A stretch of 45,496 nucleotides of DNA, from positions 1 to 45,496 of the IMG/VR virus record IMGVR_UViG_3300037200_000063. The stretch is one strand, 5' to 3'. The translations under genes and the position numbers were made by a program. A model generated the notes under the pieces. It was not told the origin of the DNA and did no database searches. It saw only the letters and a list, made by a program, of their open reading frames with translations. This stretch comes from a virus. The stretch's first letter is position 1. Every line of letters begins with the position of its first letter. Positions 1 through 35,190 of this stretch are shown here, in pieces.

Positions 1-127
1 CCGTTGAGCGTCTGATTCGCCCGCGCATCAAGGTGTTGATTGATCTTATCCGCCACGCGATCCAGCGTAAGCCCTTTGCGCTCAGCGACTTCCTGAAACT
101 TGCGCCGCATCTCATCGGGAGCAAGCA
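1..127 (+). repeat. Terminal direct repeat, left copy
   Basis: Bases 1-127 are identical to 45370-45496. The length equals a k-mer size often used by assemblers, so it most likely marks circular closure and not a biological long terminal repeat. Confidence 0.9.
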
Positions 128-293
128 GCTTGAACGGAGCCTGGCAGGCTACGACGCCGAAACCTGCTTCTTTAGCGGCCTGTGAGCCGGTTTTCCCGTC
201 TAATATGCCTTCGATCATTCTAACTCTTTTGGATTCAAGGGTTAGCTCTCTTAGGGTGACGGAGTCTTGAATAAGAGATTCATTGTGTCCCAT
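1..293 (-). CDS. Terminase small subunit, N-terminal part (continues at window end)
   Basis: N-terminal part of a 157-residue protein whose C-terminus lies at 45189-45369; the frame runs through the circular junction. It carries a helix-turn-helix-like stretch (RMIEGILDGKTGSQAAKEAGF) and, after the junction, the R..A.e.L..LLG pattern (NRVQQKAIEQLTSLLGM) common in phage small terminases. This subunit would recognise packaging sites and recruit the large subunit encoded at 40778-42538 on the same strand. The first ATG at 293 has no Shine-Dalgarno but sits 8 nt after TATACT; an inner ATG at 218 is the alternative start. It could instead be another HTH regulator, but its place at the head of the packaging/late gene run favours terminase. 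Confidence 0.6.
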   Translation of the reverse strand, partial: MGHNESLIQDSVTLRELTLESKRVRMIEGILDGKTGSQAAKEAGFGVVACQAPFKLLAPDEMRRKFQEVAERKGLTLDRVADKINQHLDARANQTLN

Positions 294-301
294 GAGATCA
301 A

Positions 302-310
302 AGTATAGCA
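302..310 (-). promoter_or_regulatory. Extended -10 promoter of terS, near-leaderless
   Basis: On the minus strand TGCTATACT (extended -10, TGnTATACT) ends 8 nt before the ATG at 293, and no Shine-Dalgarno lies between. The identical 9-mer precedes the RHH gene that starts at 43982. No convincing -35 is present. Confidence 0.45.
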
Positions 311-421
311 AAGGGGGAAACTAGGAGGGGGAGTATTTCGAGAGTGGATCGTATGGAAGTCAAGGAAAGCGCATGGATTAGCGGGTGATTCGCATAGTTG
401 AAAATAAATACATATTACTAC

Positions 422-451
422 TTGACATAATGCGAGTGGTGCGACTAGTAT
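422..451 (+). promoter_or_regulatory. Early rightward promoter
   Basis: A perfect TTGACA (422-427), an 18-nt spacer and TAGTAT (446-451), 42 nt before the first small gene at 494. A 6-bp inverted repeat TCAGGT/ACCTGA with a 5-nt loop lies just downstream (460-476) and could be an operator or leader hairpin. The 200-nt region between 293 and 494 is otherwise non-coding. Confidence 0.6.
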
Positions 452-493
452 CGTGTTTATCAGGTCACCAACCTGAATAGGAGACGGGAACAG

Positions 494-583
494 ATGACAT
501 TGGAAAATCAGATTTACACCGTTGTTGGAGTTCTTACCTCTTGCGTATTCTTGGCCATCATGATTCTCACGTTTCATCAGTAA
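494..583 (+). CDS. Small single-pass membrane peptide (29 aa)
   Basis: First gene after the early promoter. GGAGACGGGAACAG gives a good Shine-Dalgarno before the ATG. The product has a short polar N-terminus (MTLENQIY) and one hydrophobic helix (VVGVLTSCVFLAIMILTF), so it should insert in the inner membrane. No family is recognised. It is followed after 46 nt by a conserved phage gene with its own Shine-Dalgarno. A role in early host takeover is possible but only a guess from position. Confidence 0.55.
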   Translation: MTLENQIYTVVGVLTSCVFLAIMILTFHQ

Positions 584-629
584 CCACGCACCATTCACCC
601 GCAGTCCGCTAACACTAGGAGAGACGCAA

Positions 630-962
630 ATGAAACTGACAGACAAGCAGCTCGCAGACGCCAAGTTCTTTTTCCCTGAGGGATCAACCGTATATTGCAT
701 ACTTCGTAGCCGTTCACGCTCTGGCATGAGCCGTGAAATAGGGCTTGTGATCTTCAAGGATGGTGCGGAGTTTGGGCAGTTGGATCGCGTCGTGTACCAC
801 CCGAACCATCTCGCTTCTGAGCTTTCAGGCGAGCGCGTCAACAAAGCCGGTGAGGGTCTGGTTGTTCGCGGTTGCGGGATGGACATGGGTTTCCACCTTG
901 TCTCAAATCTGGCAATCGTGATCTATGGGCGGTCGGATGCGTTACGCCACGTTTGGCTATAG
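630..962 (+). CDS. Conserved phage protein with SRSGMSR motif
   Basis: A 110-residue protein with the pattern FFPEGSTVYCILRSRSRSGMSR near residues 14-35 and GGCGMDMGFHLV-type sequence (RGCGMDMGFHLVSNLA) near residue 80. I recognise this combination as an uncharacterised family widespread in tailed phages of Gram-negative hosts. CTAGGAGAGACGCAA supplies the Shine-Dalgarno. No enzymatic motif is evident. It sits in the early rightward cluster before the AAA+ ATPase. Confidence 0.75.
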   Translation: MKLTDKQLADAKFFFPEGSTVYCILRSRSRSGMSREIGLVIFKDGAEFGQLDRVVYHPNHLASELSGERVNKAGEGLVVRGCGMDMGFHLVSNLAIVIYGRSDALRHVWL

Positions 963-1018
963 GCCGAAACGCGGTGCAAGGCGCGTCTAGCGGTTTTGCC
1001 GCTACTGAGGATGGCCCA

Positions 1019-1690
1019 ATGACTAGCGCACTCTTGTTTCCCGAAATGGCCGCTCCACCCGGCTTCGACTTCCCCCAACCGTTGAGTGAGAAGTACCGCC
1101 CCACACGCATTGCAGAGTTTGCGGGACTCACTGAAACGAAACGCACTTTGCTTGGATTCGTGAGCAATCCGCGCTCAATTGGCCTGTTGTTTTCTGGCCC
1201 TGCCGGTACCGGAAAGACTTCGATGGGAATAGCCCTGGCGCGTGAGCTTTCTGGATTCCTACACCACGTCCCGGCGGGACTCTGTACAGTCGATAGGGTG
1301 AGAGAACTGGCATTCTCCTGCTCATACTATCCGCCGGTTGGATTCAAGAAGCATGTGATCCTGATAGATGAGGCGGACACCATGAGCCAAGCTGCTCAAC
1401 TGGCATGTCTGTCCTACCTTGACGGAACTGCCACGATTCCAGACACAATCTGGATTTTCACTTGCAACTCAACAGAGCGGTTTGCGGATCGCTTTCTGTC
1501 CCGGTGCCGCAACCTGCCATTTAGCACCTATGGGATTCAATCTGACGCGGCTAAGCTGCTCGAAAGGGTCTGGACTGCGGAGACGGCAAGCGATGCCCCA
1601 AACTTCGCCCGCATCATCAAGGAAAACAACGGGAATATCAGAGCCGCGCTGTCAGTGCTGGACTCGAAACTAGATGCGTCCCGCGCCTAG
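1019..1690 (+). CDS. RFC/DnaX-like AAA+ ATPase (clamp-loader type)
   Basis: A 223-residue AAA+ protein. EKYRPTRIAEFAG at residues 24-36 is the clamp-loader signature, followed by Walker A GPAGTGKT (60-67), Walker B LIDEAD (115-120), sensor 1 TCNST (148-152) and the arginine-finger SRC motif (161-163). These features fit an RFC small-subunit/DnaX homologue, which opens and loads a sliding clamp on DNA. It is shorter than full RFC and lacks most of the collar domain. The start at 1019 is chosen for GAGG 8 nt upstream; a longer open frame upstream overlaps the previous gene. No sliding clamp or DNA polymerase is visible, so it may load the host clamp or act as a helicase loader. Confidence 0.8.
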   Translation: MTSALLFPEMAAPPGFDFPQPLSEKYRPTRIAEFAGLTETKRTLLGFVSNPRSIGLLFSGPAGTGKTSMGIALARELSGFLHHVPAGLCTVDRVRELAFSCSYYPPVGFKKHVILIDEADTMSQAAQLACLSYLDGTATIPDTIWIFTCNSTERFADRFLSRCRNLPFSTYGIQSDAAKLLERVWTAETASDAPNFARIIKENNGNIRAALSVLDSKLDASRA

Positions 1691-1724
1691 TTGTGATACT
1701 TTGCGGACTGGAGGTACTACGAAT

Positions 1725-1901
1725 ATGGAAGATACAATCAAAGCTCAAGCGGTTATGACCCGGACGATTCACCGCGCCGCGATGGTGAAGTGTGCAACCG
1801 ATGCCATCTCCCTGGGTCACTACATCGGGACGCTCATCGCCAAAGACCTGGGACTCGAACCGCCGGCACTCCCACAAAGAGGACGGCCAAAGTCAGGATG
1901 A
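1725..1901 (+). CDS. Small RHH-like protein with GRPK tail
   Basis: A 58-residue protein with GGAGG at 1710-1714 and ATG at 1725. RTIHRAAMVKCATDAISLGHYIGTLIAKDLGLEPP resembles the helix pair of ribbon-helix-helix proteins, in which a serine/leucine turn is followed by a helix ending in L..xxG, and the basic GRPKSG tail is common in phage DNA-binding proteins. The N-terminal beta strand is weak, so the fold is uncertain. It ends 22 nt before the left arm of a 27-bp inverted repeat and converges with the RyR gene. Confidence 0.5.
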   Translation: MEDTIKAQAVMTRTIHRAAMVKCATDAISLGHYIGTLIAKDLGLEPPALPQRGRPKSG

Positions 1902-1922
1902 GCGGTGGATACTTGAAAATTA

Positions 1923-1949
1923 GGGGATTTATATACTTGAGTCCCTAGA
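1923..1949. repeat. 27-bp inverted repeat, left arm
   Basis: Perfect reverse complement of 2329-2355. The arm contains the TAG stop codon of the RyR-domain gene (1945-1947). In a minus-strand transcript the two arms could form a 27-bp stem enclosing the whole RyR coding sequence. Confidence 0.9.
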
Positions 1950-2298
1950 CTCCTAACACTGCCCGCACGACCAGTCCAAACATCTCATCCTTGAGCCGTT
2001 GATTCTCTGGCAGATCACCGTAGGGTACGAAGCATGGGTGCTCCTTCGTTTCTGGATTCTTGACGGGGCCATACTTCCATCCGGTCGCCGCCTTCTCAGC
2101 CAGCCATCCTTCGTGGGATTGCTCAGGCGTAGTCGAAGGATTAGCGGCGATCATCTGAACGCCCTTTACTGCGCTGATCTTCTGCCACGCAGGGGAGTCC
2201 GCCCACTTTGGTTGAGAGTTATCGCCTAGAGCCAAGCAAAGCACTCTATTCGCTTCGTGAGCCGCATATGCTGCCCGGTCGTGAATCACTTTGTCCAT
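1945..2298 (-). CDS. RyR-domain protein
   Basis: A 117-residue protein that matches the RyR domain (Pfam RyR, first seen in ryanodine receptors) over nearly its full length: HEANRVLCLALGDNSQP, SHEGWLAEKAATGWKYGPVK and EHPCFVPYGDLPENQRLKD are the characteristic blocks. Such single-domain proteins are found in many phages and bacteria; their function is not established. The start is ATG 2298, with GGAG 9 nt upstream; a TTG two codons earlier is less likely. It follows the RHH regulator gene in a small minus-strand operon, and the gene is bracketed by the 27-bp inverted repeat. Confidence 0.85.
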   Translation of the reverse strand: MDKVIHDRAAYAAHEANRVLCLALGDNSQPKWADSPAWQKISAVKGVQMIAANPSTTPEQSHEGWLAEKAATGWKYGPVKNPETKEHPCFVPYGDLPENQRLKDEMFGLVVRAVLGV

Positions 2299-2300
2299 GT

Positions 2301-2379
2301 TCAAATTCTCCTTTTTACTGGTTCTATTTCTAGGGACTCAAGTATATAAATCCCCATGTAAACGCCTGGAATCATCTTC
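2301..2379 (-). CDS. Possible 25-26-residue coupling peptide between RHH and RyR genes
   Basis: An ATG overlaps the TGA of the RHH gene (ATGA) and opens a frame of about 26 codons (begins MKMIPGVYMGIY) that ends 3 nt before the RyR start. It reads through the right arm of the inverted repeat. It could couple translation of RHH and RyR, or be chance; no homologue is known to me. Confidence 0.25.
2329..2355. repeat. 27-bp inverted repeat, right arm
   Basis: Perfect reverse complement of 1923-1949. It lies between the RHH and RyR genes, 31 nt upstream of the RyR ATG, and leaves the RyR Shine-Dalgarno outside the stem. Confidence 0.9.
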
Positions 2380-2518
2380 ATTGCTGACGCTCCAGCGCCC
2401 GGAGAGCCATGCGGATCACGCCGGTAGGGTTCAGGCCAAGCCGCTTCTTGAGCGCGTCCAGAATCGCCAAGTCCTCCTTGCTGAGTCCTAACCCGATGCG
2501 CCTTTCGGTCGTTTTCAT
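2378..2518 (-). CDS. Ribbon-helix-helix (CopG/Arc-type) regulator, 46 aa
   Basis: A 46-residue protein: beta strand KTTERRIGLGLS, helix KEDLAILDALKKRLG, turn LNPT and helix GVIRMALRALERQQ. This is the complete RHH fold of dimeric repressors such as CopG and Arc. Such proteins bind short repeated half-sites. It has no Shine-Dalgarno: the -10 box TATGCT lies exactly 6 nt before the ATG, so the mRNA is predicted to be leaderless. Four TATGCT/AGCATA half-sites cover its promoter and the divergent rightward promoter, which suggests autorepression and control of the gene at 2635. RyR follows downstream. Confidence 0.75.
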   Translation of the reverse strand: MKTTERRIGLGLSKEDLAILDALKKRLGLNPTGVIRMALRALERQQ

Positions 2519-2523
2519 GATCT

Positions 2524-2586
2524 AAGCATAGAGCATAAACTAAATTCACGCAAGACCTATTTTATGCTTGACATATTCCTTATGCT
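2524..2586. promoter_or_regulatory. Operator region with four TATGCT half-sites
   Basis: AAGCATA (2524-2530) and AGCATAA (2532-2538) face TTATGCT (2562-2568) and TTATGCT (2580-2586): two half-sites in each orientation around a centre near 2555. They overlap the minus -10 and the plus -35/spacer, as expected for RHH operators. Confidence 0.45.
2525..2553 (-). promoter_or_regulatory. Leaderless promoter of the RHH/RyR operon
   Basis: Minus strand TTGCGT (2553-2548), 17-nt spacer, TATGCT (2530-2525), then 6 nt to the ATG at 2518. The expected +1 is the A of the start codon. Confidence 0.5.
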
Positions 2587-2596
2587 CCTGTACTCT
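2568..2596 (+). promoter_or_regulatory. Rightward promoter before the gene at 2635
   Basis: Perfect TTGACA (2568-2573), 17-nt spacer, TACTCT (2591-2596). The same TTGACA-17-TACTCT combination is used on the minus strand at 6828-6800. Confidence 0.6.
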
Positions 2597-2634
2597 CTGT
2601 ATATCGGATAACCAATCCGAGGGGGAGAGAGAAA

Positions 2635-3072
2635 ATGAAATGTACAGGAGATGCCCCATGGAAAATCACCATCGACACCGCAATCGAAGCCCCACTCGGA
2701 GAGAGAAAAATGGTCACACTCAAAAGCGGTCGCATTAGTGAGAAAGATACGCAGGATGTCGAGGCTGGAAGCCTGATTATCTATGAGCCGTGGAACTCCG
2801 CGATGCGAATCGCCGTAGTTGAATCGATCACGCCGGGAGGATTCATCAAGGTCAACGGCAAGCTCTTCCGCCCTAACGGCAGCGAACGCGCCAGTTATGG
2901 ATATGTCCGCATCTGGCCCTTCAGTGAGAAGCGATTAGAGAATGATCGCATCCGCCGCGCTCAGGCACAGCGACGGATAAAAGTAGAAAATGCCAACCTT
3001 CGGGCCTCCAATCAGGAGCAGATCGACAAGCTGTATGCCGCCATGTGCGAGTGCGGCGTAATCGTGGATTAG
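2635..3072 (+). CDS. Unknown phage protein with basic C-terminal helix
   Basis: A 145-residue protein of unknown function. GGGGGAGAGAGAAA is a strong Shine-Dalgarno for the ATG at 2635; a near copy (GGAGAGAGAAAA) precedes an inner ATG at 2710, so a shorter form is possible. The middle is beta-rich (SGRISEKDTQDVEAGSLIIYEP), and residues 100-130 form a charged helix (KRLENDRIRRAQAQRRIKVENA). Two cysteines near the end (MCECG) could bind metal. It is expressed from the promoter that is divergent from the RHH gene. Confidence 0.6.
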   Translation: MKCTGDAPWKITIDTAIEAPLGERKMVTLKSGRISEKDTQDVEAGSLIIYEPWNSAMRIAVVESITPGGFIKVNGKLFRPNGSERASYGYVRIWPFSEKRLENDRIRRAQAQRRIKVENANLRASNQEQIDKLYAAMCECGVIVD

Positions 3073-3130
3073 CGCGAGACAACGACTTCGAACCATTAGG
3101 CGTTTTCGCAATTGATCCGAAGGAGAGTCA

Positions 3131-3613
3131 ATGAACGCAATCCTTCCAAAATCCGATCGATTCGGCGAACTTGAGCTCATCGAGGTCTTTGAGTATTACG
3201 ATGGTCCAAAACTCTTTGCGTGCAGGAATCTGGTCGGACAGATTCTCTTCGCACTCTGGAACGGCTCTGATCGTGATAATGATTCCTATTGGATTGTCTC
3301 GGTCAGTAACGAAAGATTCTCTATGATTCGCTCCGGGGGCATAGGGCTTGATCGGGCCTTTTTAGAGCCAGAGCTCGGGTTCGTCTATTGGTGTCTGGTC
3401 ACAGCTGCCAATGGGGACACGAGGGTGGCTCTGATACTCCCCCAGCAGCTTGACCGGGAGCTCTTGCCGGAACCCGGCCAATTTCTGAAACTCAAAACTC
3501 AGACCGGCATCCACCCACACTATGACCCGCCCACGCTGGGTGAGGTCTTCTTCCAGTTCCTGGCTATTTGCTTCTTCATAGGCATGGTCATTCTTGCACT
3601 AGCAGCGCTATGA
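3131..3613 (+). CDS. DUF6575-like protein with C-terminal membrane helix
   Basis: A 160-residue protein. The first 110 residues resemble DUF6575: VFEYYDGPKLFACRN, ILFALW, YWIVSVSNERFSMIRSGGI and FLEPELGFVYW follow the pattern of that uncharacterised family. The last ~22 residues (VFFQFLAICFFIGMVILALAAL) form a strong transmembrane helix, so this copy is probably anchored in the inner membrane with the domain in the cytoplasm. Shine-Dalgarno AAGGAGAGTCA precedes the ATG. It closes the early rightward cluster and converges with the Fis-like gene after 62 nt. Confidence 0.65.
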   Translation: MNAILPKSDRFGELELIEVFEYYDGPKLFACRNLVGQILFALWNGSDRDNDSYWIVSVSNERFSMIRSGGIGLDRAFLEPELGFVYWCLVTAANGDTRVALILPQQLDRELLPEPGQFLKLKTQTGIHPHYDPPTLGEVFFQFLAICFFIGMVILALAAL

Positions 3614-3675
3614 AAGGGAAAGCAATGGGAATTACATACTTGATTATCGCACATGCTATGTGTCTTGGACAACAA

Positions 3676-3984
3676 TCAGCGGCGGTCATTCGCGAAGTTC
3701 TGCACCTTGCGTGCAATCTCACGATGGTACCGCGCCGTATCCTCAGCGGCGGACTCAGCCTCGATGTATCCGATTGGGGGATCGCGCTCGACCTTCAAAG
3801 CCTGTAGTTCCCGCCAGATCGTGTTGCGATGCACTCTCAGGAGTTCAGCCGTGCGGCACTGATTGCCGCCAGTCCGCTCCATTGTGATCTGCATCCGCAT
3901 GGGCCTATCGCGCATCGCCTGCTCCCTCCATGGGAGGGAGCTCGCGGCACTCTCCAAAGCGGCAACTTGGCCCCACAATTCCAT
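3676..3984 (-). CDS. Fis-type helix-turn-helix protein
   Basis: A 102-residue protein. Residues ~33-65 (MQITMERTGGNQCRTAELL, then RVHRNTIWRELQAL) match the Fis C-terminal HTH, whose consensus is ALe.t.GNqtrAAelLGinRnTLrkkL. The N-terminal part lacks the Fis beta-hairpin, and the C-terminal ~35 residues are charged. The start is ATG 3984 with GGTGGAG 5 nt upstream; an inner ATG at residue 30 is also possible. It overlaps the end of the previous gene by 80 nt and is the last gene of the helicase operon. A role in binding phage DNA or the host transcription machinery is inferred from the fold. Confidence 0.65.
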   Translation of the reverse strand: MELWGQVAALESAASSLPWREQAMRDRPMRMQITMERTGGNQCRTAELLRVHRNTIWRELQALKVERDPPIGYIEAESAAEDTARYHREIARKVQNFANDRR

Positions 3985-4423
3985 CTAAGCTCCACCAGTC
4001 CAATCCCCGCTTGAAATCAGGATCGCCGCAGAGCACGCAGCAGGTTTTGCGCGGGTCAGAATAGCCGCCTGACCGCAACAGTTCGACAGTGCGCGGAGTG
4101 CCCAACTTGACAGACTCGCTGGCCCAGTATTCCCACGTCACCATGGGCAGACGCGGAAGATCGCGGACATACCGGATGAGCTGAGCGAGCGCCTGAAATC
4201 CAGTGCCACCGGTCGATCTCTGGCGATACCCGAAAGACGGCCAATCGCCACCTTCCCGCAGTCGAGCAGGAAAATCATACTTCGGCGGTTGGCGGCGATG
4301 GTCCCAGCACATTCGCAATTCCTTGGTTCGATAGAGAAGCACTCCCGGCGCTACAGTGTCCAGCACAAGGTTGGCAACGCCGATGCGATATTCAACTTGG
4401 CGTTTCTGTTCAGAAGCGATCAT
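3905..4423 (-). CDS. Unknown cysteine-containing protein in replication operon
   Basis: A 172-residue protein of unknown function. The start ATG 4423 overlaps the stop of the primase-like gene (ATGA) and has GGAGGAGATGCACG upstream. A cysteine pair CCVLCGD near residue 130 and GPSCRFGEC near residue 160 could form a zinc site. FQALAQLIRYVRDLPRLP is a likely amphipathic helix. Its position after the primase zinc domain and translational coupling suggest a role in replication, which is not shown. Confidence 0.55.
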   Translation of the reverse strand: MIASEQKRQVEYRIGVANLVLDTVAPGVLLYRTKELRMCWDHRRQPPKYDFPARLREGGDWPSFGYRQRSTGGTGFQALAQLIRYVRDLPRLPMVTWEYWASESVKLGTPRTVELLRSGGYSDPRKTCCVLCGDPDFKRGLDWWSLDGIVGPSCRFGECRELPPMEGAGDAR

Positions 4424-4917
4424 CGTGCATCTCCTCCTGTTTCCATGATCGCCGCCAACTTGCCTGCGATTCCGGCGGCGATGATCCTTTCCATGTGAAC
4501 CGCAAGCAACTGTTTCAGGTGGGGCCGCTCTCCCTTGGCCGCCATGATCTGAGCGGTCGCACAAGCTACCGTCGAATCCCTTTCGTATGTCGTGTATCCC
4601 ACTGAGCGGAAGTGTTCCACCAGCACCCGAATCCGCATTCGATACTCAAACGCCTCTTGCTCCAGCCGCGCCTGTTGTGCCTCACGGATAGCTCTGGGAT
4701 CGCGTCGCGCATAGTACATGTCCTTGAATGTCAGATTCACCGCCGCCAAAACATCGTCGGACTCGCATCCCGCGAAGCAGTGGACGGAACACCGCTCCTT
4801 GCCTGCATAGATTGCCAGCGTCAAGGACTTCCCGCCGTGGACAGGGCACCTGGCACGCCATACCTTCCCTTCGCGCCGGGATCGCTCGAACAGTCTGGCC
4901 AAGTCCTCAGCCTGCAC
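4420..4917 (-). CDS. Primase-type (CHC2-like) zinc-binding protein
   Basis: A 165-residue protein. RARCPVHGGKSLTLAIYAGK followed by CSVHCFAGCESDDVLAAVNLTFKDM (residues ~22-66) is the zinc ribbon of DnaG-type primases (CP.H ... C.HC...GC.s.DV). This domain recognises the initiation triplet on single-stranded DNA. The rest is helical with no TOPRIM acidic motif, so it is a stand-alone zinc domain and probably works with another protein. The start appears to be GTG 4917, overlapping the helicase stop by 11 nt, with only a weak Shine-Dalgarno. The stop overlaps the next start. Confidence 0.75.
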   Translation of the reverse strand: MQAEDLARLFERSRREGKVWRARCPVHGGKSLTLAIYAGKERCSVHCFAGCESDDVLAAVNLTFKDMYYARRDPRAIREAQQARLEQEAFEYRMRIRVLVEHFRSVGYTTYERDSTVACATAQIMAAKGERPHLKQLLAVHMERIIAAGIAGKLAAIMETGGDAR

Positions 4918-6448
4918 TCGCCACCGCCGATTCTTCTTTGGCCTTCGATTTTGCGAACTTGATCCTGCAATGCCGGTCGAACATCTCTATGTCGTAATTC
5001 GTCGGCCCGCGCTCCTTCTTTAGTTGATTAGGCCACACACCAAACTTCTCTTTGTACCTGTGCGCCGCCCAGCCCTCGCTCCGATTCCGCTGGTGCGCCA
5101 GCGTCAAGAACCCTGAATACCACTCCTGCTTCTCGAACATCGAGAACGCTAGTGCCGGGTCTTTCTTCTTCTTTTTTCCAGTGAACTCTACAAGCTGCCC
5201 CGGAACGGTTTCCACGGTTGTGGATGCGAATACCATCGCCCCGCAGGCCGGACACTGGCGATGGTTTGCTGGTATCAGCGCATTGCATCGGTCGCACTTG
5301 CGGGGCTTAGCAGGCTTCTTGTCCTCTTCGTAGGCTTCGCCCTTCTCTTGCTTCGTGCGGCGGTCTAGGCGGTCGTGCAGGATGTCCGTGACCATGCCCA
5401 ACCGCAGGGTGTTGCCAGCATGGTCTAGGATCGTCAACACCTCTTTGCCGGGGGCAGTACGCAGTCCGCGCCCTATCTTCTGGACATGGCGTATCTCTGA
5501 GCGCGTGGGCGAAGCGTCTATGATGCACCTCACATCCTCGTCTACCCCGGTCGTCAGACAGCCCACCGATGCGATGATCTTGTTTCGCCCGCGCCGGAAG
5601 TCCCCAAACTCTTTCTCCCGATACTCCCGGCTCGTGTTGGCGTCGATATACCCGCACCCCACCCCTAGGCTCTCGAATTCATCCCGTAGGCTCTTTGCGT
5701 GGTTCCTGTCCACCGCAAACAGGAACGTCGGCATCCCGTCGCACCGCTCTTGCCATGTCGCGACCACATCGGCAACGATTCGCTTCTCCCCCATGATGGC
5801 CGATGAACTAGCTTCGGTGAACTCGCCATTCTGTACCTTGAGTTTGGAGAAGTCCGCCTCAGCCATCGGCGCGAAAATCACGAACGGACTCAGGTGGCTT
5901 TCCTCGATCAGTTCCGAGACGGTCGCCGCGATGATGAGCTTCGTCCACCGCAGGCCCATCCCCTTGGCCCACGGCGTAGCTGTCAGCCCAATCACATACT
6001 TGTCTCTCCACTCGTCTGAGTCCATGCGCTCGTTGAGCTTCTCAAACCCCAAATGGGCTTCGTCCACGATGACCATATCGACTTCCGGCAACGGACGCCG
6101 GATGAGGGTCTGCACCGATGCAATCTGGACTTGTGCGCCCCAGTCTGTGCGCTCATGGTTCGCCTGGATCACGCCGATGTCCGAGATTCCCTCATCCTCG
6201 AATGACTTGAGCGTCTGGTCTACCAGTGTGATCGCTGGACAGGTGAACAGGGGACGCTTGCCCTTCTGCACCGAAGCTTCGATCAGGTGGGCTGCCAGCA
6301 GGGTCTTTCCGAATCCGGTCGGCGCTTGGACGATGATGCGCTTATGGCCCTCCCGAATCGCCTTCCGGATGGATTCGATTGCAGCGGCCTGTCGCGGTCT
6401 TAGAGGTCGGAGGGACTTCCATTTCGTCTGGTCGAATAAACCTTTCAT
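4907..6448 (-). CDS. SF2 DEAD/DEAH-box helicase
   Basis: A 513-residue superfamily 2 helicase. Motifs: LRPRQ near residue 17, motif I APTGFGKT (42-49), motif II DEAH (129-132), motif III LTATP (155-159), motif V TTGVDED (~300) and motif VI QKIGRGLR (323-330). A four-cysteine zinc site (C385, C388, C399, C402) follows the helicase core. The arrangement is that of phage and UvrB/Rad3-branch DEAH helicases that unwind duplex or remodel replication or recombination structures with ATP. It leads an operon with a primase zinc domain. A Shine-Dalgarno-like AAGGG precedes the ATG. The promoter appears to be 350 nt upstream, with a structured leader. Confidence 0.9.
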   Translation of the reverse strand: MKGLFDQTKWKSLRPLRPRQAAAIESIRKAIREGHKRIIVQAPTGFGKTLLAAHLIEASVQKGKRPLFTCPAITLVDQTLKSFEDEGISDIGVIQANHERTDWGAQVQIASVQTLIRRPLPEVDMVIVDEAHLGFEKLNERMDSDEWRDKYVIGLTATPWAKGMGLRWTKLIIAATVSELIEESHLSPFVIFAPMAEADFSKLKVQNGEFTEASSSAIMGEKRIVADVVATWQERCDGMPTFLFAVDRNHAKSLRDEFESLGVGCGYIDANTSREYREKEFGDFRRGRNKIIASVGCLTTGVDEDVRCIIDASPTRSEIRHVQKIGRGLRTAPGKEVLTILDHAGNTLRLGMVTDILHDRLDRRTKQEKGEAYEEDKKPAKPRKCDRCNALIPANHRQCPACGAMVFASTTVETVPGQLVEFTGKKKKKDPALAFSMFEKQEWYSGFLTLAHQRNRSEGWAAHRYKEKFGVWPNQLKKERGPTNYDIEMFDRHCRIKFAKSKAKEESAVASAG

Positions 6449-6799
6449 TTTCTAGCCCTTATACGATTGGCGTTTTTGCACTTCCGAGCAGCCGAGGCCT
6501 TTTGGGGACATCTATGGCTTTAGTAAAAAAATGGATGTTCCGCTATGCGTGGTCACTATCGGCGAAGCGCTACCCCCGCCGCGTTTCACCCGTCACACTG
6601 ATCCTTGAACCCCTGTTTTCAGTGGGCGACTGGTATTCCAGCCGGGATATGCGCCTAAAGCCACCCCCCATGCAGAATTCCACTCTGCATGAAGCTTTGG
6701 AAGAGACATTCGCGGAAGTCCGCCGAGACGCGCGTCTGCGAAAGCTTTCAAACCCGAATTGTGGGAGGAAATTTGCATATTCTTCGTCTAAGCATCCTC
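6449..6799 (-). ncRNA. Candidate structured leader RNA of the helicase operon
   Basis: This stretch, read on the minus strand from the promoter at 6828-6800 to the helicase ATG, has no convincing gene but many stems. They include CATGCAGA/TCTGCATG (6691-6684 with 6676-6669, 7-nt loop), CGGCTGG with CCAGTCG and an AATA loop (needs a G-U pair on this strand only), CACTGA/TCAGTG, CGGCG/CGCCG, and GGAACATC with GATGTCCC around a T-run loop. A 61-codon frame at 6593-6778 lacks a good start site. It may be a long regulatory 5' UTR or an independent RNA. No known RNA family was recognised. Confidence 0.4.
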
Positions 6800-6828
6800 A
6801 GAGTACCGAATGTCGTCTATACTGTCAA
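6800..6828 (-). promoter_or_regulatory. Promoter of the helicase operon
   Basis: Minus strand TTGACA (6828-6823), 17-nt spacer, TACTCT (6805-6800). Both boxes and spacing match the rightward promoter at 2568-2596. Confidence 0.6.
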
Positions 6829-6913
6829 TGCGGGGTGAGCCGCGCACCCCTTCTCTCTTCGTCTAAGCAACGCGAGAGACTCCCCCGCACCCTCCCTCTC
6901 AGCCCCCTCGGTC

Positions 6914-6930
6914 AAAAGCCCTTGGGGGCT
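6914..6930 (-). terminator. Rho-independent terminator after the gene at 6938
   Basis: Minus strand stem AGCCC (6930-6926), loop CCAA, GGGCT (6921-6917), followed by a short T run (TTT). It begins 7 nt after the stop codon. It separates the accessory operon from the helicase operon promoter. An additional hairpin GGGGTG/CACCCC lies at 6832-6850. Confidence 0.6.
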
Positions 6931-6937
6931 GTGGTGT

Positions 6938-7360
6938 CTAGGTGAGTTTTACGCAATCCGCCAAGCGGAACACGATCCCACGGCAGTATTTGTCGCCGTC
7001 CTCGACAACATCGAAGCACTCATGTGGAATGTCCGTTTTGTATGTCCACGAGTATTCGCCGTCGCACCACACCGACTCAATCTCGCGGCCAGTCCCTTCG
7101 ATAGCGAAGTAGGCTTTCAGGGCGTCCTTGTCGCCCTTATCCACTTCATCGAAGCCCCCAATCAAGCCGTTCGGCCCAATCTCAAACTTCCCTGGCCCTC
7201 CGATCTTGTCTTGGAAAGCCCCATAGAACTCTACGAGGTCGTCCGAGCCCCCGCAGATAACCACTAAGCCGCTCTCCTTGGCTTGGATCGCCAAAGCTTT
7301 CGGAACATCAAACGGATATTCCGACCCCTCCAACTGACTCGCCAGTTCTTTAGGTGTCAT
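6938..7360 (-). CDS. Conserved phage protein of unknown function (GGSDDLVEFYGA family)
   Basis: A 140-residue acidic protein. ESGLVVICGGSDDLVEFYGA near residue 30, IESVWCDGEYSWTYKTDIPH near residue 95 and KYCRGIVFRLADC near the end match an uncharacterised family common in phages. No catalytic motif is known. The start ATG 7360 follows a weak GGACATGC region. It is the last gene of the accessory minus-strand operon, and a terminator follows at once. Confidence 0.75.
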   Translation of the reverse strand: MTPKELASQLEGSEYPFDVPKALAIQAKESGLVVICGGSDDLVEFYGAFQDKIGGPGKFEIGPNGLIGGFDEVDKGDKDALKAYFAIEGTGREIESVWCDGEYSWTYKTDIPHECFDVVEDGDKYCRGIVFRLADCVKLT

Positions 7361-7415
7361 GATGCATGTCCTTTGTGCGACATCCTCCGTCGCCGGTTAG
7401 GGGGCTGTGGTGTGT

Positions 7416-7616
7416 TTAGGGCACCATATGGCAATGTGCCCCATATGGGACTCCTTTCTCGCCACATTTCGGACAGGTTTCGTCTGTGTCGCCTTCCTCT
7501 TCGATGGGAGCGTCAGACTCCATCGCCCACTCTTCGCAGTAGCAATCCCCGCAGTTCGGGCACTCGTTGCAGTCTGGGCATATATCAAATCGGCAACGAT
7601 CACAAAACTCCGACAT
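7416..7616 (-). CDS. Cysteine-rich zinc-ribbon protein
   Basis: A 66-residue protein with ten cysteines: CDRCRFDICPDCNECPNCGDCYC at the N-terminus and CPKCGEKGVPYGAHCH at the C-terminus. This suggests two zinc-binding knuckles joined by an acidic linker. GAGGAGGAAGAGGG gives a very strong Shine-Dalgarno. No specific family is recognised. A different frame over the same bases is weaker because it lacks this ribosome site. Confidence 0.65.
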   Translation of the reverse strand: MSEFCDRCRFDICPDCNECPNCGDCYCEEWAMESDAPIEEEGDTDETCPKCGEKGVPYGAHCHMVP

Positions 7617-7628
7617 CCCTCTTCCTCC

Positions 7629-7922
7629 TCACACAGACCGCACTTCTCTGTCGCGGATCATAAAGCCATTCTCGCGCCATCTCGTATTTCCAATGTGGTA
7701 GGTCTGGCACAGTGGGCACCTGTAGACCTTCAGCCATCGCTTATCGTCCTTGCGGTCAGGTAGAGCTTCTGCATCGCGCCGAGCCTCATCCGGGTCGTCA
7801 TATTGGGCCTTCCCTTTGCACCCCCGCACCATGCGGGTACGCTCCAGAGCCGAAAGGTGAGCATAGGGCACGCGCCATATCTGGCAAGCGGCTCGCCACT
7901 CCTTCGCCCGCATCCGTTTCAC
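7629..7922 (-). CDS. Phage protein with YRCPLCQ zinc half-site
   Basis: A 97-residue basic protein. EWRAACQIWRVPYAHLSALERTR and the C-terminal LKVYRCPLCQTYHIGNTR (C-x2-C and H) resemble small phage proteins of unknown function with a zinc knuckle. The start is GTG 7922 with GGAGG 7 nt upstream; an inner ATG three codons on has no better site. It is in the accessory operon between two other zinc-binding proteins. Confidence 0.65.
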   Translation of the reverse strand: MKRMRAKEWRAACQIWRVPYAHLSALERTRMVRGCKGKAQYDDPDEARRDAEALPDRKDDKRWLKVYRCPLCQTYHIGNTRWRENGFMIRDREVRSV

Positions 7923-7975
7923 TCAACCACCTCCATTGTCGTTGCGATCCGGACGGTCTGCGTTGTTTCGTTGAA

Positions 7976-8128
7976 TTACTTCTTGATTGACCCGCGCCGT
8001 GGCGTGGCAAAAACTATCTTGTAGCAGGCGATGGCTTTGAGACCAAGATAGGGTGAAGAATGCTCCCACGGATCACGGCTTGATTTCCGGCTGATGGGCT
8101 TGTTGCAGTGTGTACACGTCGCTGTCAT
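7976..8128 (-). CDS. Small protein with CxxC motif (50 aa)
   Basis: A 50-residue basic protein beginning MTATCTHCNKPISRKSS, with AAGGAG 9 nt before ATG 8128. An in-frame ATG at 8155 overlaps the GIY-YIG stop codon (ATGA) and would add nine residues. The CTHC pair and a later single cysteine (AIACYK) may hold metal. No family is recognised. Confidence 0.5.
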   Translation of the reverse strand: MTATCTHCNKPISRKSSRDPWEHSSPYLGLKAIACYKIVFATPRRGSIKK

Positions 8129-8151
8129 TGTGGTGCGCTCCTTAGCCGCCT

Positions 8152-8484
8152 TCATTTCGCCGCCTTTCTGTACTTGCGTCGGGACAGCAACTCGCGCATC
8201 ACTGAGTCCATGGATCGGGTCTTGAGTGGCGCTCCCGGATACGTGCAATTGAATGGGGGCCGGAACTGGACGATAAGGAATTCCTCCAGCCAGCGCAAAA
8301 ACTCCACATCCGGCGGGCAGGTAGTGTATTCGCACCGGAGCAAAAACTGTCGAAGTCTAAGGTTTGAGTTATGAGTCATCAGCCTTCTTCTAAGTTGAAG
8401 GGTGCGCCCTATATACAACAGTTTGCCATTCCCGTAAATGCTGTAGACGGCAGGGACATCGGGCACATGATACCAATGGCTCAT
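8152..8484 (-). CDS. GIY-YIG endonuclease domain protein
   Basis: A 110-residue stand-alone GIY-YIG domain: VYSIYGNGKLLYIGRT (SIY at 15-17 replacing GIY, YIG at 24-26), catalytic R27, H38 region, metal-binding glutamate in LRWLEEFLIVQF (E67), and the conserved asparagine in RPPFN (N79). The family cuts DNA using one metal ion; members include homing nucleases, UvrC and phage restriction enzymes. No DNA-recognition domain follows except a short basic tail (RRKYRKAAK). Its start overlaps the stop of the RHH gene (ATGA), so an RHH dimer may regulate it. Whether it attacks host DNA, competitor phage DNA or branched DNA is unknown. Confidence 0.85.
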   Translation of the reverse strand: MSHWYHVPDVPAVYSIYGNGKLLYIGRTLQLRRRLMTHNSNLRLRQFLLRCEYTTCPPDVEFLRWLEEFLIVQFRPPFNCTYPGAPLKTRSMDSVMRELLSRRKYRKAAK

Positions 8485-8630
8485 TTCGCAACCGCCGTCC
8501 TAATCGCGGCCCGGATCGCCGCTGCCGTGGATACCGGCCCTTGAGAGACTGCCATTTGCGCTTTTAGCGTGGACAGCAGCTTCTTATCTTCGGGCGTGAG
8601 GTCGATGCTGAACTTCGTAGTCTTCGCCAT
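8481..8630 (-). CDS. Ribbon-helix-helix regulator, 49 aa
   Basis: A 49-residue protein with beta strand AKTTKFSIDLT, helix PEDKKLLSTLKAQMA and second helix TAAAIRAAIRTAVA, the RHH plan. The start ATG 8630 has no Shine-Dalgarno; the -10 TATTAT is 7 nt upstream, so a leaderless mRNA is predicted. An 8-bp inverted repeat AATAATAG/CTATTATT covers this -10 and reaches toward the divergent rightward promoter. It leads the accessory operon and overlaps the GIY-YIG start. It is probably an autorepressor that also controls the rightward recombination operon. Confidence 0.65.
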   Translation of the reverse strand: MAKTTKFSIDLTPEDKKLLSTLKAQMAVSQGPVSTAAAIRAAIRTAVAK

Positions 8631-8636
8631 GAATCT

Positions 8637-8677
8637 AATAATAGCGCGGGTGCAGGAATTATGCAAACACTATTATT
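8637..8677. promoter_or_regulatory. Inverted-repeat operator in divergent promoter region
   Basis: AATAATAG (8637-8644) and its exact reverse complement CTATTATT (8670-8677) are centred at 8657. One arm lies on the leftward -10, the other 6 nt before the rightward TTGACA. Confidence 0.4.
8638..8667 (-). promoter_or_regulatory. Leaderless promoter of the accessory operon
   Basis: Minus strand TTTGCA (8667-8662), 18-nt spacer, TATTAT (8643-8638), then 7 nt to the RHH ATG at 8630. Confidence 0.5.
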
Positions 8678-8683
8678 TTCCCC

Positions 8684-8712
8684 TTGACAAGCGCCGCGTC
8701 CTGATTTACCTT
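8684..8712 (+). promoter_or_regulatory. Rightward promoter of the recombination operon
   Basis: Perfect TTGACA (8684-8689), 17-nt spacer, TACCTT (8707-8712). It is divergent from the leaderless RHH promoter. Confidence 0.55.
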
Positions 8713-8775
8713 TGCTCTTGTCATCAACCCACCGGGCCAGCGACAGCCGAGGCGACAGCGAACACCCAAGGGGAG

Positions 8776-8808
8776 ATGCGATCTTATACGGCGAGGTTTT
8801 TACGATGA
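8776..8808 (+). CDS. Possible 10-residue leader peptide
   Basis: AAGGGGAG immediately precedes an ATG that opens a 10-codon frame (MRSYTARFLR). Its TGA overlaps the start of the next gene (ATGA). It could couple ribosomes into that gene; it may also be chance. Confidence 0.3.
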   Translation: MRSYTARFLR

Positions 8809-8996
8809 CACACTTTCCGAAGCAAATCCACATAACTCGCGAGAACGAGGATCAGGAGGGCTATTGGCAGGTGACAGAAGGCGACAGCGCGGAATCTGCC
8901 CTCAGGTCCACAGCTAAGACTAGGGTGGCGACCTATGAACTCAAGGAAGTCAAAGAGGGAAGGCTAGAGCCGGTCTTCTCTACGATCATCGGCTAA
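8805..8996 (+). CDS. Small unknown protein, first gene of rightward operon
   Basis: A 63-residue protein (MTHFPKQIHITRENEDQEGYW start). GAGG lies 9 nt before ATG 8805, and a leader peptide ends on the start codon. The sequence looks beta-rich with alternating charged strands (WQVTEGDSAESALRST, ATYELKEVKEGRLEPVF), like small phage proteins of unknown role. It is the first full gene after the rightward promoter at 8684. Confidence 0.5.
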   Translation: MTHFPKQIHITRENEDQEGYWQVTEGDSAESALRSTAKTRVATYELKEVKEGRLEPVFSTIIG

Positions 8997-9061
8997 CGAC
9001 GTTTCACCCGGCGGCTCAGCGGATACCATCAATCGCCATCCCGCCAAGAAATGAGGGAACT

Positions 9062-9478
9062 ATGCAATTCGAGTATCCGAGGCGAAAACTAGGAGAGTCG
9101 TCCGCTCAACATCGTGGGCGGCAGAAGCGATCTCTGAATGAATGGAATGACTCTCTCAAGTTGGAGTTAGGAGAGATCGTCCGGGTCGGGAATCACATTT
9201 ACAGATGGGACGGCAGGTTCAATCGCGTATGCCCTTCGGTTATTCGCCGCGCCGATGAGGAGGATGTGCAAAAACTCCTTGTTCGAGAGGCCAAAGCAAA
9301 AGAGGCAGAGAGGTGGCGGGCCGAAAGGGATGCATTCTTAGCACTGCCCCATGTGCGCGATGCGCGGGCCATTGCATACGCTCTTGAGGATGATGGTCTC
9401 GGCAATGTCATCGACCGCCTAACCCCGTCCGAGTGGAGCGAACTCCGCAGTAAGTTGGAACTCAATGCACGCTCCTGA
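9062..9478 (+). CDS. Unknown protein with charged helical centre
   Basis: A 138-residue protein of unknown function. The N-terminus is basic (YPRRKLGESSAQHRGRQKRS), then a beta-like segment (LELGEIVRVGNHIYRWDGRFNRV), a long charged helix (DEEDVQKLLVREAKAKEAERWRAERDAFL) and a helical tail. GAGGGAACT precedes ATG 9062. Its end overlaps the start of a small membrane peptide by 14 nt. Confidence 0.55.
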   Translation: MQFEYPRRKLGESSAQHRGRQKRSLNEWNDSLKLELGEIVRVGNHIYRWDGRFNRVCPSVIRRADEEDVQKLLVREAKAKEAERWRAERDAFLALPHVRDARAIAYALEDDGLGNVIDRLTPSEWSELRSKLELNARS

Positions 9479-9578
9479 CTTCACCGGCAAGAAGGCCCGC
9501 CAGAACCGCGCTGCGGACAACCTGCTACGCTTTGCCATCGTCGCGGGAATTCTTTCGTTACTGGGGATGATGATATGA
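9465..9578 (+). CDS. Small membrane peptide (37 aa)
   Basis: A 37-residue frame with a basic N-terminus (FTGKKARQNRAADN) and one hydrophobic helix (LLRFAIVAGILSLLGMMI), fitting a single-pass protein with a cytoplasmic N-terminus. The ATG lies inside the end of the previous gene and has only a weak ribosome site, so it is less certain than its topology suggests. Confidence 0.4.
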   Translation: MHAPDFTGKKARQNRAADNLLRFAIVAGILSLLGMMI

Positions 9579-9689
9579 AGCATGTAATCGTGATCCGGGC
9601 CGTGCTTCATCCTGAGCAGGTTCAACGTATAATCCGCTATCGCCGCAAACACATGAGATGTACAACGCTCCTGAATGGAAGGATGGGCT

Positions 9690-10277
9690 ATGACCGACCT
9701 ACACGAAACCACCGCGATCCAATGCAACCAATGCGGCGAACCGTTTGAGATCGAGCCACCCGCACCAGACTATCCGCAGGAAGAAATCATCGTCCAGGTG
9801 GAGTGCGATAAGGGCAAGTTCTGCTGTGAGCCGTGCCGCGCCCAAGCGATGTATGAAGCGCAGGATGAGGATGGACGCAAGGCGCTGCGGCGGATGTATC
9901 TTGGACTGCGGTTAGTGCTGGAGAATCGTCGGGACGTGAACGAGATATTCAGCGCATGGGACATTGGCCCCGTTATTGACGGCGACCCAGCGGCAATGAC
10001 GGCACTTTCTCCCGAGGGCGGTGTGCATGGCAAGGAAGGCCCGGAGGACGAGTGCGAATCCCTCCTGATGCCAGCGGGGGCCCGCAAGCTCATCTGGAAT
10101 GGATTGTGGAAAGGGCGCTTCGCGGCGACACTGGAGCTGGTGCGGGCCGAGCAGATGGATGCCACCTATCTGGGCGAGGTGTACAAGGCCGAGGTGGTCG
10201 CAGTGGCGAAGAAGAAGCTTGCCGATGCTGAGGCGGCTTTTAAGGCGCTGGAAGAGCTTAGGAGTGTGATGGAATGA
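9690..10277 (+). CDS. Unknown protein with N-terminal zinc finger
   Basis: A 195-residue protein. CNQCGEPFEIEPP at residues ~12-24 and CDKGKFCCEPCRAQ near residue 45 together supply two cysteine pairs for a zinc ribbon. The rest is helical and acidic (DEDGRKALRRMYLGLRLVLENRR, then an alanine/lysine helix at the end). ATG 9690 with GGAAGG upstream is preferred over an ATG at 9675. Its last codons overlap the beginning of a DnaB gene remnant in another frame, which suggests that a deletion fused the two regions. Confidence 0.6.
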   Translation: MTDLHETTAIQCNQCGEPFEIEPPAPDYPQEEIIVQVECDKGKFCCEPCRAQAMYEAQDEDGRKALRRMYLGLRLVLENRRDVNEIFSAWDIGPVIDGDPAAMTALSPEGGVHGKEGPEDECESLLMPAGARKLIWNGLWKGRFAATLELVRAEQMDATYLGEVYKAEVVAVAKKKLADAEAAFKALEELRSVME

Positions 10278-10458: not shown

Positions 10459-10478
10459 GAACTGGAGGCTCCAACCAA

Positions 10479-10834
10479 TGATCGACGCACAGAGCTATAT
10501 CAACCAAAACATGCCGCTGCCCGCTGGACTCACGACAACCGGCAACCTGTACAACCTCTGGTCGTACGCGCACCCGCTGCCCGCTGGACTCACGACAACC
10601 GGCAACCTGTACAACCTCTGGTCGTACGCGCACCCGCTGCCCGCTAGACTCACGACAACCGGCAACCTGGACCTCGGGTCGTACGCGCACCCGCTGCCCG
10701 CTGGACTCACGACAATCGGCAACCTGTACCTCGGGTCGTACGCGCACCCGCTGCCCGCTAGACTCACGATAACCGGCAATCTGTACAACCTCGGGTCGTA
10801 CGCGCACCCGCTGCCCGCTGAGTGGCAGGCGTAG
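10479..10834 (+). CDS. LPxGLTTxGNLY repeat protein (LRR-like solenoid)
   Basis: A 118-residue protein made mostly of five 19-20-residue repeats with core LPAGLTTTGNLYNLWSYAHP. GGAGGCTCCAACC precedes ATG 10479. The pattern LPxGLTxxGxLxL resembles the short leucine-rich-like repeats of many phage and bacterial proteins that form a beta-solenoid; their function is unknown. After a 12-residue leader there is nothing but repeats and a short LPAEWQA end. The first two DNA units are identical, so recent duplication is likely. It may be a binding protein whose repeat number varies. Confidence 0.6.
10513..10815 (+). repeat. Five tandem 57-60-bp coding repeats
   Basis: Units start at 10513, 10573, 10633, 10690 and 10747; units 1 and 2 are identical over 60 nt. 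The others differ at a few sites and two lack one codon. Length always changes by multiples of three, keeping the frame. Confidence 0.85.
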
Positions 10835-15434: not shown

Positions 15435-16145
15435 TCAGTGCAGCAGGTACCCACCCAATTGCGCCGCGAAGATAGCGTCTGACCTCAACGAGCATCGAAT
15501 CGTTGGGTGCCGGATGCACGCCGTCAGTTTTTCTTCAGTGTCTTTGCTCAGCACGAGCATCTGGTCTGCCGTCACCACGCCCTTGTTGACGTTCGCGGCC
15601 AGGTCTTTCACGTCCGCCGATGACAGCAGCGCATCAAGGTGCTGAACCGCCGCATTCCCTGAATCCAGCCCTGCATTCAGTTTCCCCGCCGTCGCGTGGA
15701 AGTCGGTGTAGAGCGATAGCTCTTGCGTGTCCAGCGTCCCCAGGTTGCGATCCCAGTGCGCGCCGGCCGCCTCCAGGGTGCCCGCCGTGCCCCTGAAGGT
15801 GGCAAGGGTGCGGTTTACGTCGGGGAGCGTCCCGCAGGGCGCAGGCAGGCAGGGCCGATTGAGTGTGTCGGATGTTCTGTTGATTGCTGCGGCAGATGCT
15901 TGCAGGACGGGCGTGGCGGCGCTGATAGCAGTCTTGGCGGCGTCTAGGGCGTCTCCAGCCTTGGTGAGGGCAGGCTGGGCATCTGAGCGCATCCCTGATA
16001 CCGTATCGTTGACTGCCTTGAAGGTGCCGGCAAGTCCGTGGTCAATCCGCTGGATTGTGCCGCTCAGCTGGATCAGCACCAACAGCAACGCCGCCCCGAC
16101 CACAGGTACGGTCAGCAGGGCGGCGATGCGGGCTATGCGTTCCAT
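15435..16145 (-). CDS. Membrane-anchored helical protein (MCE-like helical part)
   Basis: A 236-residue protein. After MERIARI a strong transmembrane helix (AALLTVPVVGAALLLVLIQL) is followed by ~200 residues of alanine-rich helices without long hydrophobic runs (DAQPALTKAGDALDAAKTAI and similar repeats). The layout resembles the helical, outside-facing part of MCE/MlaD-type proteins, although no beta MCE domain is seen. A poor ribosome site precedes ATG 16145. As the last late gene after the lysis cluster it may act at the cell envelope. Confidence 0.5.
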   Translation of the reverse strand: MERIARIAALLTVPVVGAALLLVLIQLSGTIQRIDHGLAGTFKAVNDTVSGMRSDAQPALTKAGDALDAAKTAISAATPVLQASAAAINRTSDTLNRPCLPAPCGTLPDVNRTLATFRGTAGTLEAAGAHWDRNLGTLDTQELSLYTDFHATAGKLNAGLDSGNAAVQHLDALLSSADVKDLAANVNKGVVTADQMLVLSKDTEEKLTACIRHPTIRCSLRSDAIFAAQLGGYLLH

Positions 16146-16158
16146 GAGTGAATTGTAC

Positions 16159-16232
16159 GGCCCCCGACTCCGGCATATAGCTCAACCAATGAGCGCTCAT
16201 TGGTATGTTGCAGCAGCCTTCGTGCGGGGGCC
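16159..16232. repeat. Nested inverted repeat with 20-bp palindrome
   Basis: ACCAATGAGC/GCTCATTGGT at 16185-16204 is a perfect 20-bp palindrome. It is enclosed by GGCCCCCG (16159-16166) and CGGGGGCC (16225-16232). It lies in the gap between two late genes. No T run follows on either side, so it may be an operator, RNA-processing stem or cruciform and not a simple terminator. Confidence 0.75.
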
Positions 16233-34342: not shown

Positions 34343-34565
34343 CGTTGCCTCCGATATATTCGAGTTCGCCGCTTGCTGCTGCATTCACCATCTGCTCAAC
34401 CGCCCGCTGAAGAAATCCCAGCACCGCGCCACACGGAAGTCCATGAGACGAATAGGTGGCAAGTTCTCCCGTAACGGGATTGAGCGCAATCCCAAACAGC
34501 GCGAAGTCTCCAGATGCGACGGAGAACTCGGCCAATCGTTCCTGAGCTTGCGGGGAAAGCGGCAT
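34281..34565 (-). CDS. Unknown late protein (94 aa)
   Basis: A 94-residue protein whose ATG 34565 overlaps the stop of the previous gene (TGATG). FSVASGDFALFGIALNPVTG and ATYSSHGLPCGAVLGFLQRA look like a folded domain; the last ~20 residues are low complexity and lie in the overlap with the next gene. No family is recognised. Confidence 0.5.
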   Translation of the reverse strand: MPLSPQAQERLAEFSVASGDFALFGIALNPVTGELATYSSHGLPCGAVLGFLQRAVEQMVNAAASGELEYIGGNDGMAQGSTPETEGGKIGLVH

Positions 34566-35128
34566 CAGTGAATCTCCTCAAACCAGCGCTGGGACTCGCG
34601 GCCCCTCGCAATCGAGAATACACGCTCTGTCTCCGAAACGGGGATCAATCTGTCCTTGATGAGCCGCGCCAAGATTGTCCTCCACCCACGCACCTGCCCC
34701 TTCATCTGAGGCTTCCCCCACTGGTCATGCTCTATTTTACGGGTTGTGAACTCGGGACTAAGCCCTGTCCACTCCATCCCCACGATATGACGCCGCCCCC
34801 GACAAGCATGGTCCAGGTCCGCCATATTCGACACCCCATCTCGGAAGTAGACCGCTCCCATGTGAGGGAAGTTCCTGCTCTGCTCGAAAATGAGGTTGGC
34901 ATTGAGTTTGGTCAGCCTTTCAATGATGGTTTGCCGCGTCAGGGGCCGTCCTAACTGCGCCGTAGCGTCCGTGGTGAGGAAATCGCCATCCCGACCGCTC
35001 ACAGCCTCGCGCTGCTTCGCTAATGCGCCCTCAGCAGCCTTATGCTGCTTATCTCGCTCGGCATCGCGGAAGAATCGGTCGAGTTGCGCCGCCATTTTGG
35101 CGGAGTCGATTACGCAAGGGCTTGACAT
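34565..35128 (-). CDS. Unknown structural-region protein (187 aa)
   Basis: A 187-residue protein. LTRQTIIERLTKLNANLIFE, SRNFPHMGAVYFRDGV and GRGWRTILARLIKDRL-like segments resemble a conserved uncharacterised protein found near capsid genes of podoviruses and cyanophage-like genomes. It might be a head completion or adaptor protein by position. The stop overlaps the next start. Confidence 0.5.
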   Translation of the reverse strand: MSSPCVIDSAKMAAQLDRFFRDAERDKQHKAAEGALAKQREAVSGRDGDFLTTDATAQLGRPLTRQTIIERLTKLNANLIFEQSRNFPHMGAVYFRDGVSNMADLDHACRGRRHIVGMEWTGLSPEFTTRKIEHDQWGKPQMKGQVRGWRTILARLIKDRLIPVSETERVFSIARGRESQRWFEEIH

Positions 35129-35190
35129 TCAACCATCCTACACGCGAAAGCCGCCCCATAAGGACGGCCAATACGCGTTCTGGGGAGAAT

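Follow-up and report, generated by a model that had tools for sequence, protein, structure and literature searches.

Genes of an uncultured phage lineage can begin at an ATG that has no Shine-Dalgarno (SD) motif and lies a few nucleotides behind a -10 box. We think it likely that sigma70-type promoters of this layout give leaderless or nearly leaderless mRNAs, and that the layout is a general option of the lineage for genes with a promoter of their own and not a marker of regulators. In brief, from a -10 box so near the ATG, the first transcribed nucleotide would be that of the start codon or lie at most about 2 nt away, and the resulting mRNA would be leaderless or nearly so and be read from its 5'-terminal AUG. 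Over evolution, such starts and SD-bearing leaders would be interchangeable. Leaderless mRNAs are likely because adjacent -10 boxes are in excess in the window (the whole stretch of DNA analysed, 45,496 bases) and their distance to the start codon peaks in its relatives. A sequence-only reading of the window had proposed leaderless-type promoters, and the position of the boxes, the trade-off between SD motif and -10 box in the window and the recurrence in related phages all back that proposal.

Genome features and relatives

The window is a virus contig whose 127-base end repeat closes it to a circle of 45,369 bp, with a G+C content of 56.5%. Terminase, portal and capsid genes form a block on the minus strand, whereas genes of early type, for an Erf annealing protein and a RecE-like exonuclease, are on the plus strand. 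We did not recognise an integrase or a lysogeny module among the genes of the window. Relatives in IMG/VR have TerL proteins 87-92% identical to that of the window. The named phage collection holds no phage close to it; a scan with the terS alignment for further relatives added no lineages, a search of cellular genome contigs with the TerL alignment gave no cellular relatives, and a search of Rfam gave no matches. Among the matches listed, Tunturi_3 is the top-scoring phage record for both TerL and portal; an acidobacterial host is only hinted at by this identity of 20-23%.

Two repeats are found away from the starts discussed below. A 27-bp perfect inverted repeat (1923-1949 and 2329-2355) is placed around a RyR-domain gene (1945-2298), possibly as a mobile or terminator-like unit, and a 60-bp tandem repeat of about five copies (10514-10820) lies within ORF 10478-10834.

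Starts without an SD motif in the window

A literal check of the sequence confirmed the four SD-less ATGs that had been pointed out, each preceded at 6-8 nt by a -10 box of the form TAnnnT. All are on the minus strand. The starts at 293 and 43982 have TGC TATACT, 8 and 7 nt before the ATG, respectively, 2518 has TATGCT at 6 nt and 8630 has TATTAT at 7 nt. The start codon is ATG in every case, an SD motif is absent, and the best anti-SD duplex has a positive energy, i.e. no pairing (0.6, 1.7, 0.5 and 1.5 kcal/mol for 293, 2518, 8630 and 43982). The circle has no copies of TGCTATACT, the extended -10 box described as identical at two of the starts, other than those at 302 and 43990 (minus strand). 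Except at 8630, the -35 boxes are poor. Dinucleotide shuffles give single-site chances of 0.010, 0.098, 0.031 and 0.019 in the same order; their product, about 6e-7, is for sites picked because they show the layout.

Gene starts of the window were re-examined without regard to SD motifs, since the first gene caller, which is SD-weighted, is biased against -10-adjacent sites. SD motifs were sought 3-12 nt before the start, and an adjacent -10 box was defined as TAnnnT with at least four of six consensus positions at 5-9 nt. SD motifs precede 43 of the 55 starts; the statement that nearly all other genes have strong SD sites holds for the majority and is otherwise overstated. An adjacent -10 box is found at six of the 12 SD-less starts (293, 2518, 8630, 16145, 40765 and 43982) and at one of the 43 with an SD motif (Fisher p=2e-4). 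The box at 40765 (TAAAGT, 6 nt) was rejected as a -10-adjacent start, since it probably arises by coincidence from the stop codons TGATAA, 12 nt behind terL; without it, the same test gives p=8e-4.

Two window starts of the same layout, 16145 and 35128, had been missed. The first is SD-less and has TACAAT at 16152-16157 (minus strand), 6 nt before the ATG. Its gene encodes 236 aa, and an 18-bp perfect palindrome, CCAATGAGCGCTCATTGG (16186-16203), lies 40 nt upstream (region 16140-16203, minus strand).

Regulators and operator-like repeats

Three of the four starts belong to putative RHH-type regulators on the minus strand. The gene at 2378-2518 (SD-less ATG at 2516-2518) encodes 46 aa; its match to PF01402 (E=0.001) narrowly misses the curated cut-off. 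Because of an in-frame TAG at -6, this ATG is the sole start that gives the whole domain, and a single-sequence structure model of the protein has two helices behind a short strand. The -10-like TATGCT (2525-2530, minus strand) lies 6 nt before the ATG and matches the consensus at four of six positions only. It may be an operator, besides or in place of a -10 box, because it is one of four AGCATA/TATGCT copies (2525, 2532, 2563 and 2581) within about 60 bp (2524-2586; p=0.0015 against shuffles). Two of the copies lie on the -35 box and spacer of a divergent TTGACA (2568-2573)-N17-TACTCT (2591-2596), before the SD-led gene 2635.

The gene at 8481-8630 (SD-less ATG at 8628-8630) encodes an RHH-like protein of 49 aa (PF01402, E=0.009, below the curated cut-off), modelled with two helices. 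The promoter TTTGCA-N18-TATTAT (8638-8667, minus strand) places its -10 box 7 nt before the ATG. An inverted repeat, AATAATAG (8637-8644) and CTATTATT (8670-8677), extends over the -10 box with marginal support (p=0.047 and p=0.18), and its second arm adjoins a divergent TTGACA (8684-8689).

The third gene, at 43470-43982 (SD-less ATG at 43980-43982), encodes an Arc/RHH-like protein of 170 aa with a Cys-rich C-terminal part (phrog_582, E=1.2e-4; NCBIfam YlcI_YnfO_N, E=4.5e-6, below cut-off). The extended -10 box TGC-TATACT is at 43990-43998 (minus strand), 7 nt before the ATG. In this region GTCTTACA is directly repeated three times (43966-43976, 43981-43991 and 44003-44013, minus strand; p=0.003 and p=0.001), with the middle copy over the start codon, and we did not find this repeat elsewhere in the genome.

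Operator-like repeats over the -10 box are clear at 43982 and 2518 and marginal at 8630. They suggest that the RHH proteins probably repress their own genes and, in two cases, the divergent operon as well. Each small RHH protein would bind the repeats over its -10 box, at 43982 covering the start codon too, and shut off its own promoter. The protein at 2518, and probably that at 8630, would also shut off a divergent early operon, where repeats lie over or beside the early promoter. Searches of viral contigs gave no relatives of the 43982 and 8630 proteins, and no orthologues of the 2518 and 8630 regulators were detectable.

Starts in related phages

Gene frames of the relatives were called by conservation and codon usage, ignoring SD motifs. 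Among SD-less intergenic ATG candidates in the 15 close records, window included, -10 boxes peak at 5-9 nt, with 11 against 1.83 per equal bin elsewhere; the SD-led starts of the same records have an adjacent -10 box in 0 of 50 cases. With the window left out, eight SD-less starts in the 14 related contigs have a -10 box at 5-9 nt, compared with about two per control bin (later bins 4, 2, 3, 0, 2, 1 and 2), counts that are small, and rough because the candidates include ATGs at which no gene begins. In far relatives (TerL below 45%) the 5-9 nt distance is only slightly preferred (5 vs 3.2 per bin).

Two of the candidates need comment. We rejected L011 1455 (TATATT, 6 nt) as a leaderless start, because the GGAGG behind the ATG serves an internal ATG homologous to the start in G005, and the one in G008/L014 (TACAAT, 6 nt) is doubtful, because a nearby ATG has an SD. 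The L011 arrangement (1440-1475) is TATATT, 6 nt and ATGGAGGCAACACATATG; the predicted message would start with an ATG followed by GGAGG, the SD of the conserved ATG that comes next.

The zinc-ribbon gene behind terS has a -10-adjacent start in G003, G004 and G007, perhaps also in L014 (TACACT, 8 nt), and is SD-led in the window (44605). In contig L037 (G003; about 3938-3980), the -10 box and start codon of this gene (TACAAT, 6 nt, ATG) are covered by the 18-nt arms of an operator-like, perfect inverted repeat. A regulator of the late operon has the -10-adjacent layout in the window (RHH), G003 (RHH) and G007 (HTH). In G005, the RHH gene at the orthologous position carries AGAGG in a short leader, together with GTTATAC repeats, and an RHH gene of G006 is ambiguous in its start type.

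terS

The 5' part of the putative terS occupies 1-293 (minus strand), with an SD-less ATG at 291-293, and the rest of the gene lies beyond the circle junction, as far as 45192. It should be noted that the terS assignment is a weak terminase small subunit match, made solely via the L011 orthologue (PHROG 1595, E=0.003). The extended -10 box TGC-TATACT (302-310, minus strand) ends 8 nt before the ATG. A divergent promoter-like site, TTGACA-N18-TAGTAT (422-451, plus strand), points away from terS and is a consensus match only. We did not find an operator-like repeat at the terS promoter.

SD-less terS orthologues with an adjacent TATACT are found in three lineages, at 8 nt in the window, 7 nt in G004 and 9 nt in G007. 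The L011 group has TATACT at 17 nt and is likewise SD-less. In the L005/L006/L009 group, the upstream sequence is TATGCTATCT, followed by AGGAGG and TTG, and in the L016/L017 group it is TGCTATCT, followed by GGAG. The -10-adjacent layout is consequently kept in three of six lineages, two have an SD and one has the 17-nt spacing without SD. From these sequences, the terS promoter element seems to be kept while the leader ranges from none to about 25 nt. SD sites before these genes in related phages had been named as evidence against leaderless starts, and they do occur, before terS in the two groups just described and before the G005 RHH gene (AGAGG). Among the relatives, then, terS and the regulator gene swap between predicted leaderless-type and SD-led starts. 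The terS gene, which shares its strand with terL and the structural genes and precedes them, is probably late.

A G+C-rich intergenic element recurs in the terS-terL stretch, upstream of differing genes and with DNA 73-83% identical in relatives (window 44071-44147, minus strand side; L009 9200-9275; L014 507-623; G004 29923-30009; G007 5733-5824). It may be a pac site or an RNA element.

A conserved late gene

The best-conserved case of the layout is the gene at 34565-35128 (minus strand), of unknown function, where TAGGAT (35135-35140) lies 6 nt before the ATG at 35128. In six lineages (window, G003, G004, G005, G006 and G008/L014) the box is TAGGAT, TAGAAT or TATACT, and its distance to the ATG is 6, 6, 7, 6, 6 and 6 nt. 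The layout is thus kept at this gene in six lineages, and at terS in three of six. TAGGAT contains AGGA, a weak SD, which makes four of the six lineages ambiguous. The two lineages without AGGA retain TA---T, and for this reason the -10 reading is favoured.

A strong terminator-like hairpin (about 35149-35169 in the window) immediately precedes the box in five of the six lineages, and 35129-35169 (minus strand) forms a terminator-promoter-start module within the late operon. From a promoter right behind the terminator, transcription would resume and yield a leaderless message.

Alternative explanations

The mRNAs could instead start farther upstream, with a short, SD-less, A/T-rich and unstructured leader selecting the ATG and the hexamers being operators or chance matches. 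We regard this as unlikely. A second TATGCT at 13 nt and a TAAAAT about 40 nt before 2518, a TATTCT at 15 nt before 43982, the 17-nt spacing in the L011-group terS and the status of TATGCT at 2518 as a repeat unit would all fit, yet such leaders do not predict the 5-9 nt peak at SD-less starts or the fixed distance at gene 35128.

The sequence-only reading had also proposed a class of regulators, i.e. repressors made from leaderless mRNAs that 70S ribosomes translate under special conditions, early or with few initiation factors. Regulators are indeed over-represented, as three -10-adjacent starts of the window, the RHH gene of G003 and the HTH gene of G007 encode DNA-binding proteins. Enrichment of transcription genes has, however, been reported for leaderless genes generally (Zheng 2011, PMC3160421). 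We consider a dedicated class improbable, and the proposal is not supported: the layout is shared by terS, zinc-ribbon genes and, in its most conserved form, late gene 35128, the genes at 35128 and 16145 are not known regulators, the RHH orthologue in G005 has an SD-like leader, and with terS probably late the set has no common timing. Equally improbable, in our judgement, is that the repressors are minimal modules with promoter, operator and start codon in the same ~40 bp, in which one RHH protein would cover both the polymerase site and the leaderless 5' end, and that leaderless translation gives regulators an expression regime unlike that of the SD-led majority of genes.

Chance TAnnnT boxes at AT-rich gene starts, selected by eye, are very improbable: single matches are modestly unlikely (p 0.01-0.1) and promoter-like matches in 1-10000 are not above shuffles, but the SD trade-off in the window (p=2e-4), the distance preference in relatives and the conserved distance in orthologues speak against them.

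Comparison with known systems

Leaderless-type starts as a general option of the lineage would leave the general picture of phage regulation unchanged. They do affect the annotation of gene starts, as the SD-weighted caller overlooked 43982 and made terS and 2518 too short, and the terS and regulator orthologues offer a natural series for the gain and loss of leaders.

Leaderless phage repressors are already established, and the window adds to a known kind. The cI and cro mRNAs of PY54 (PMC4488713) and those of lambda cI and of PaaR2 from the E. coli prophage CP-933P (PMC8630535) are leaderless. As predicted for the window, a small phage DNA-binding regulator has its promoter directly before the start codon, with the operators packed into that short stretch too, and is often divergent from the operon under its control. 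Those regulators are of cI/Cro-type HTH with mapped transcript ends, whereas the window encodes putative RHH proteins, and unlike those systems it has no recognised lysogeny module or integrase. CvkR and cas12k form a divergent leaderless pair in CRISPR-associated transposons (PMC9938897). CvkR is likewise a mobile-element repressor with a leaderless mRNA (predicted here), a divergent target gene and an operator in a short spacer. It is of MerR type and its target is also leaderless, whereas the divergent early gene 2635 is SD-led.

In Deinococcus-Thermus, leaderless mRNAs are transcribed from -10 boxes that lie a few bp ahead of the ORF and are subject to spacing requirements; the mode is common, at about a third of genes, and the -35 box is often dispensable (PMC12340547). 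In the window only 5-7 of ~55 starts are of this kind. TA-led genes are found in all three Acidobacteria examined, at a mean of 13.3% (Zheng 2011, PMC3160421), and if the host is acidobacterial the proportion in the window would be ordinary. Two annotated starts of Tunturi_3, a cultured acidobacterial phage, are -10-adjacent, one with TGCTATACT at 8 nt. The TA-led bacterial genes likewise lack an SD and have TAnnnT about 10 bp ahead of the start. They were described in cellular genomes, whereas here starts of leaderless type can be traced across an uncultured phage lineage in which orthologues exchange them for SD-led ones.
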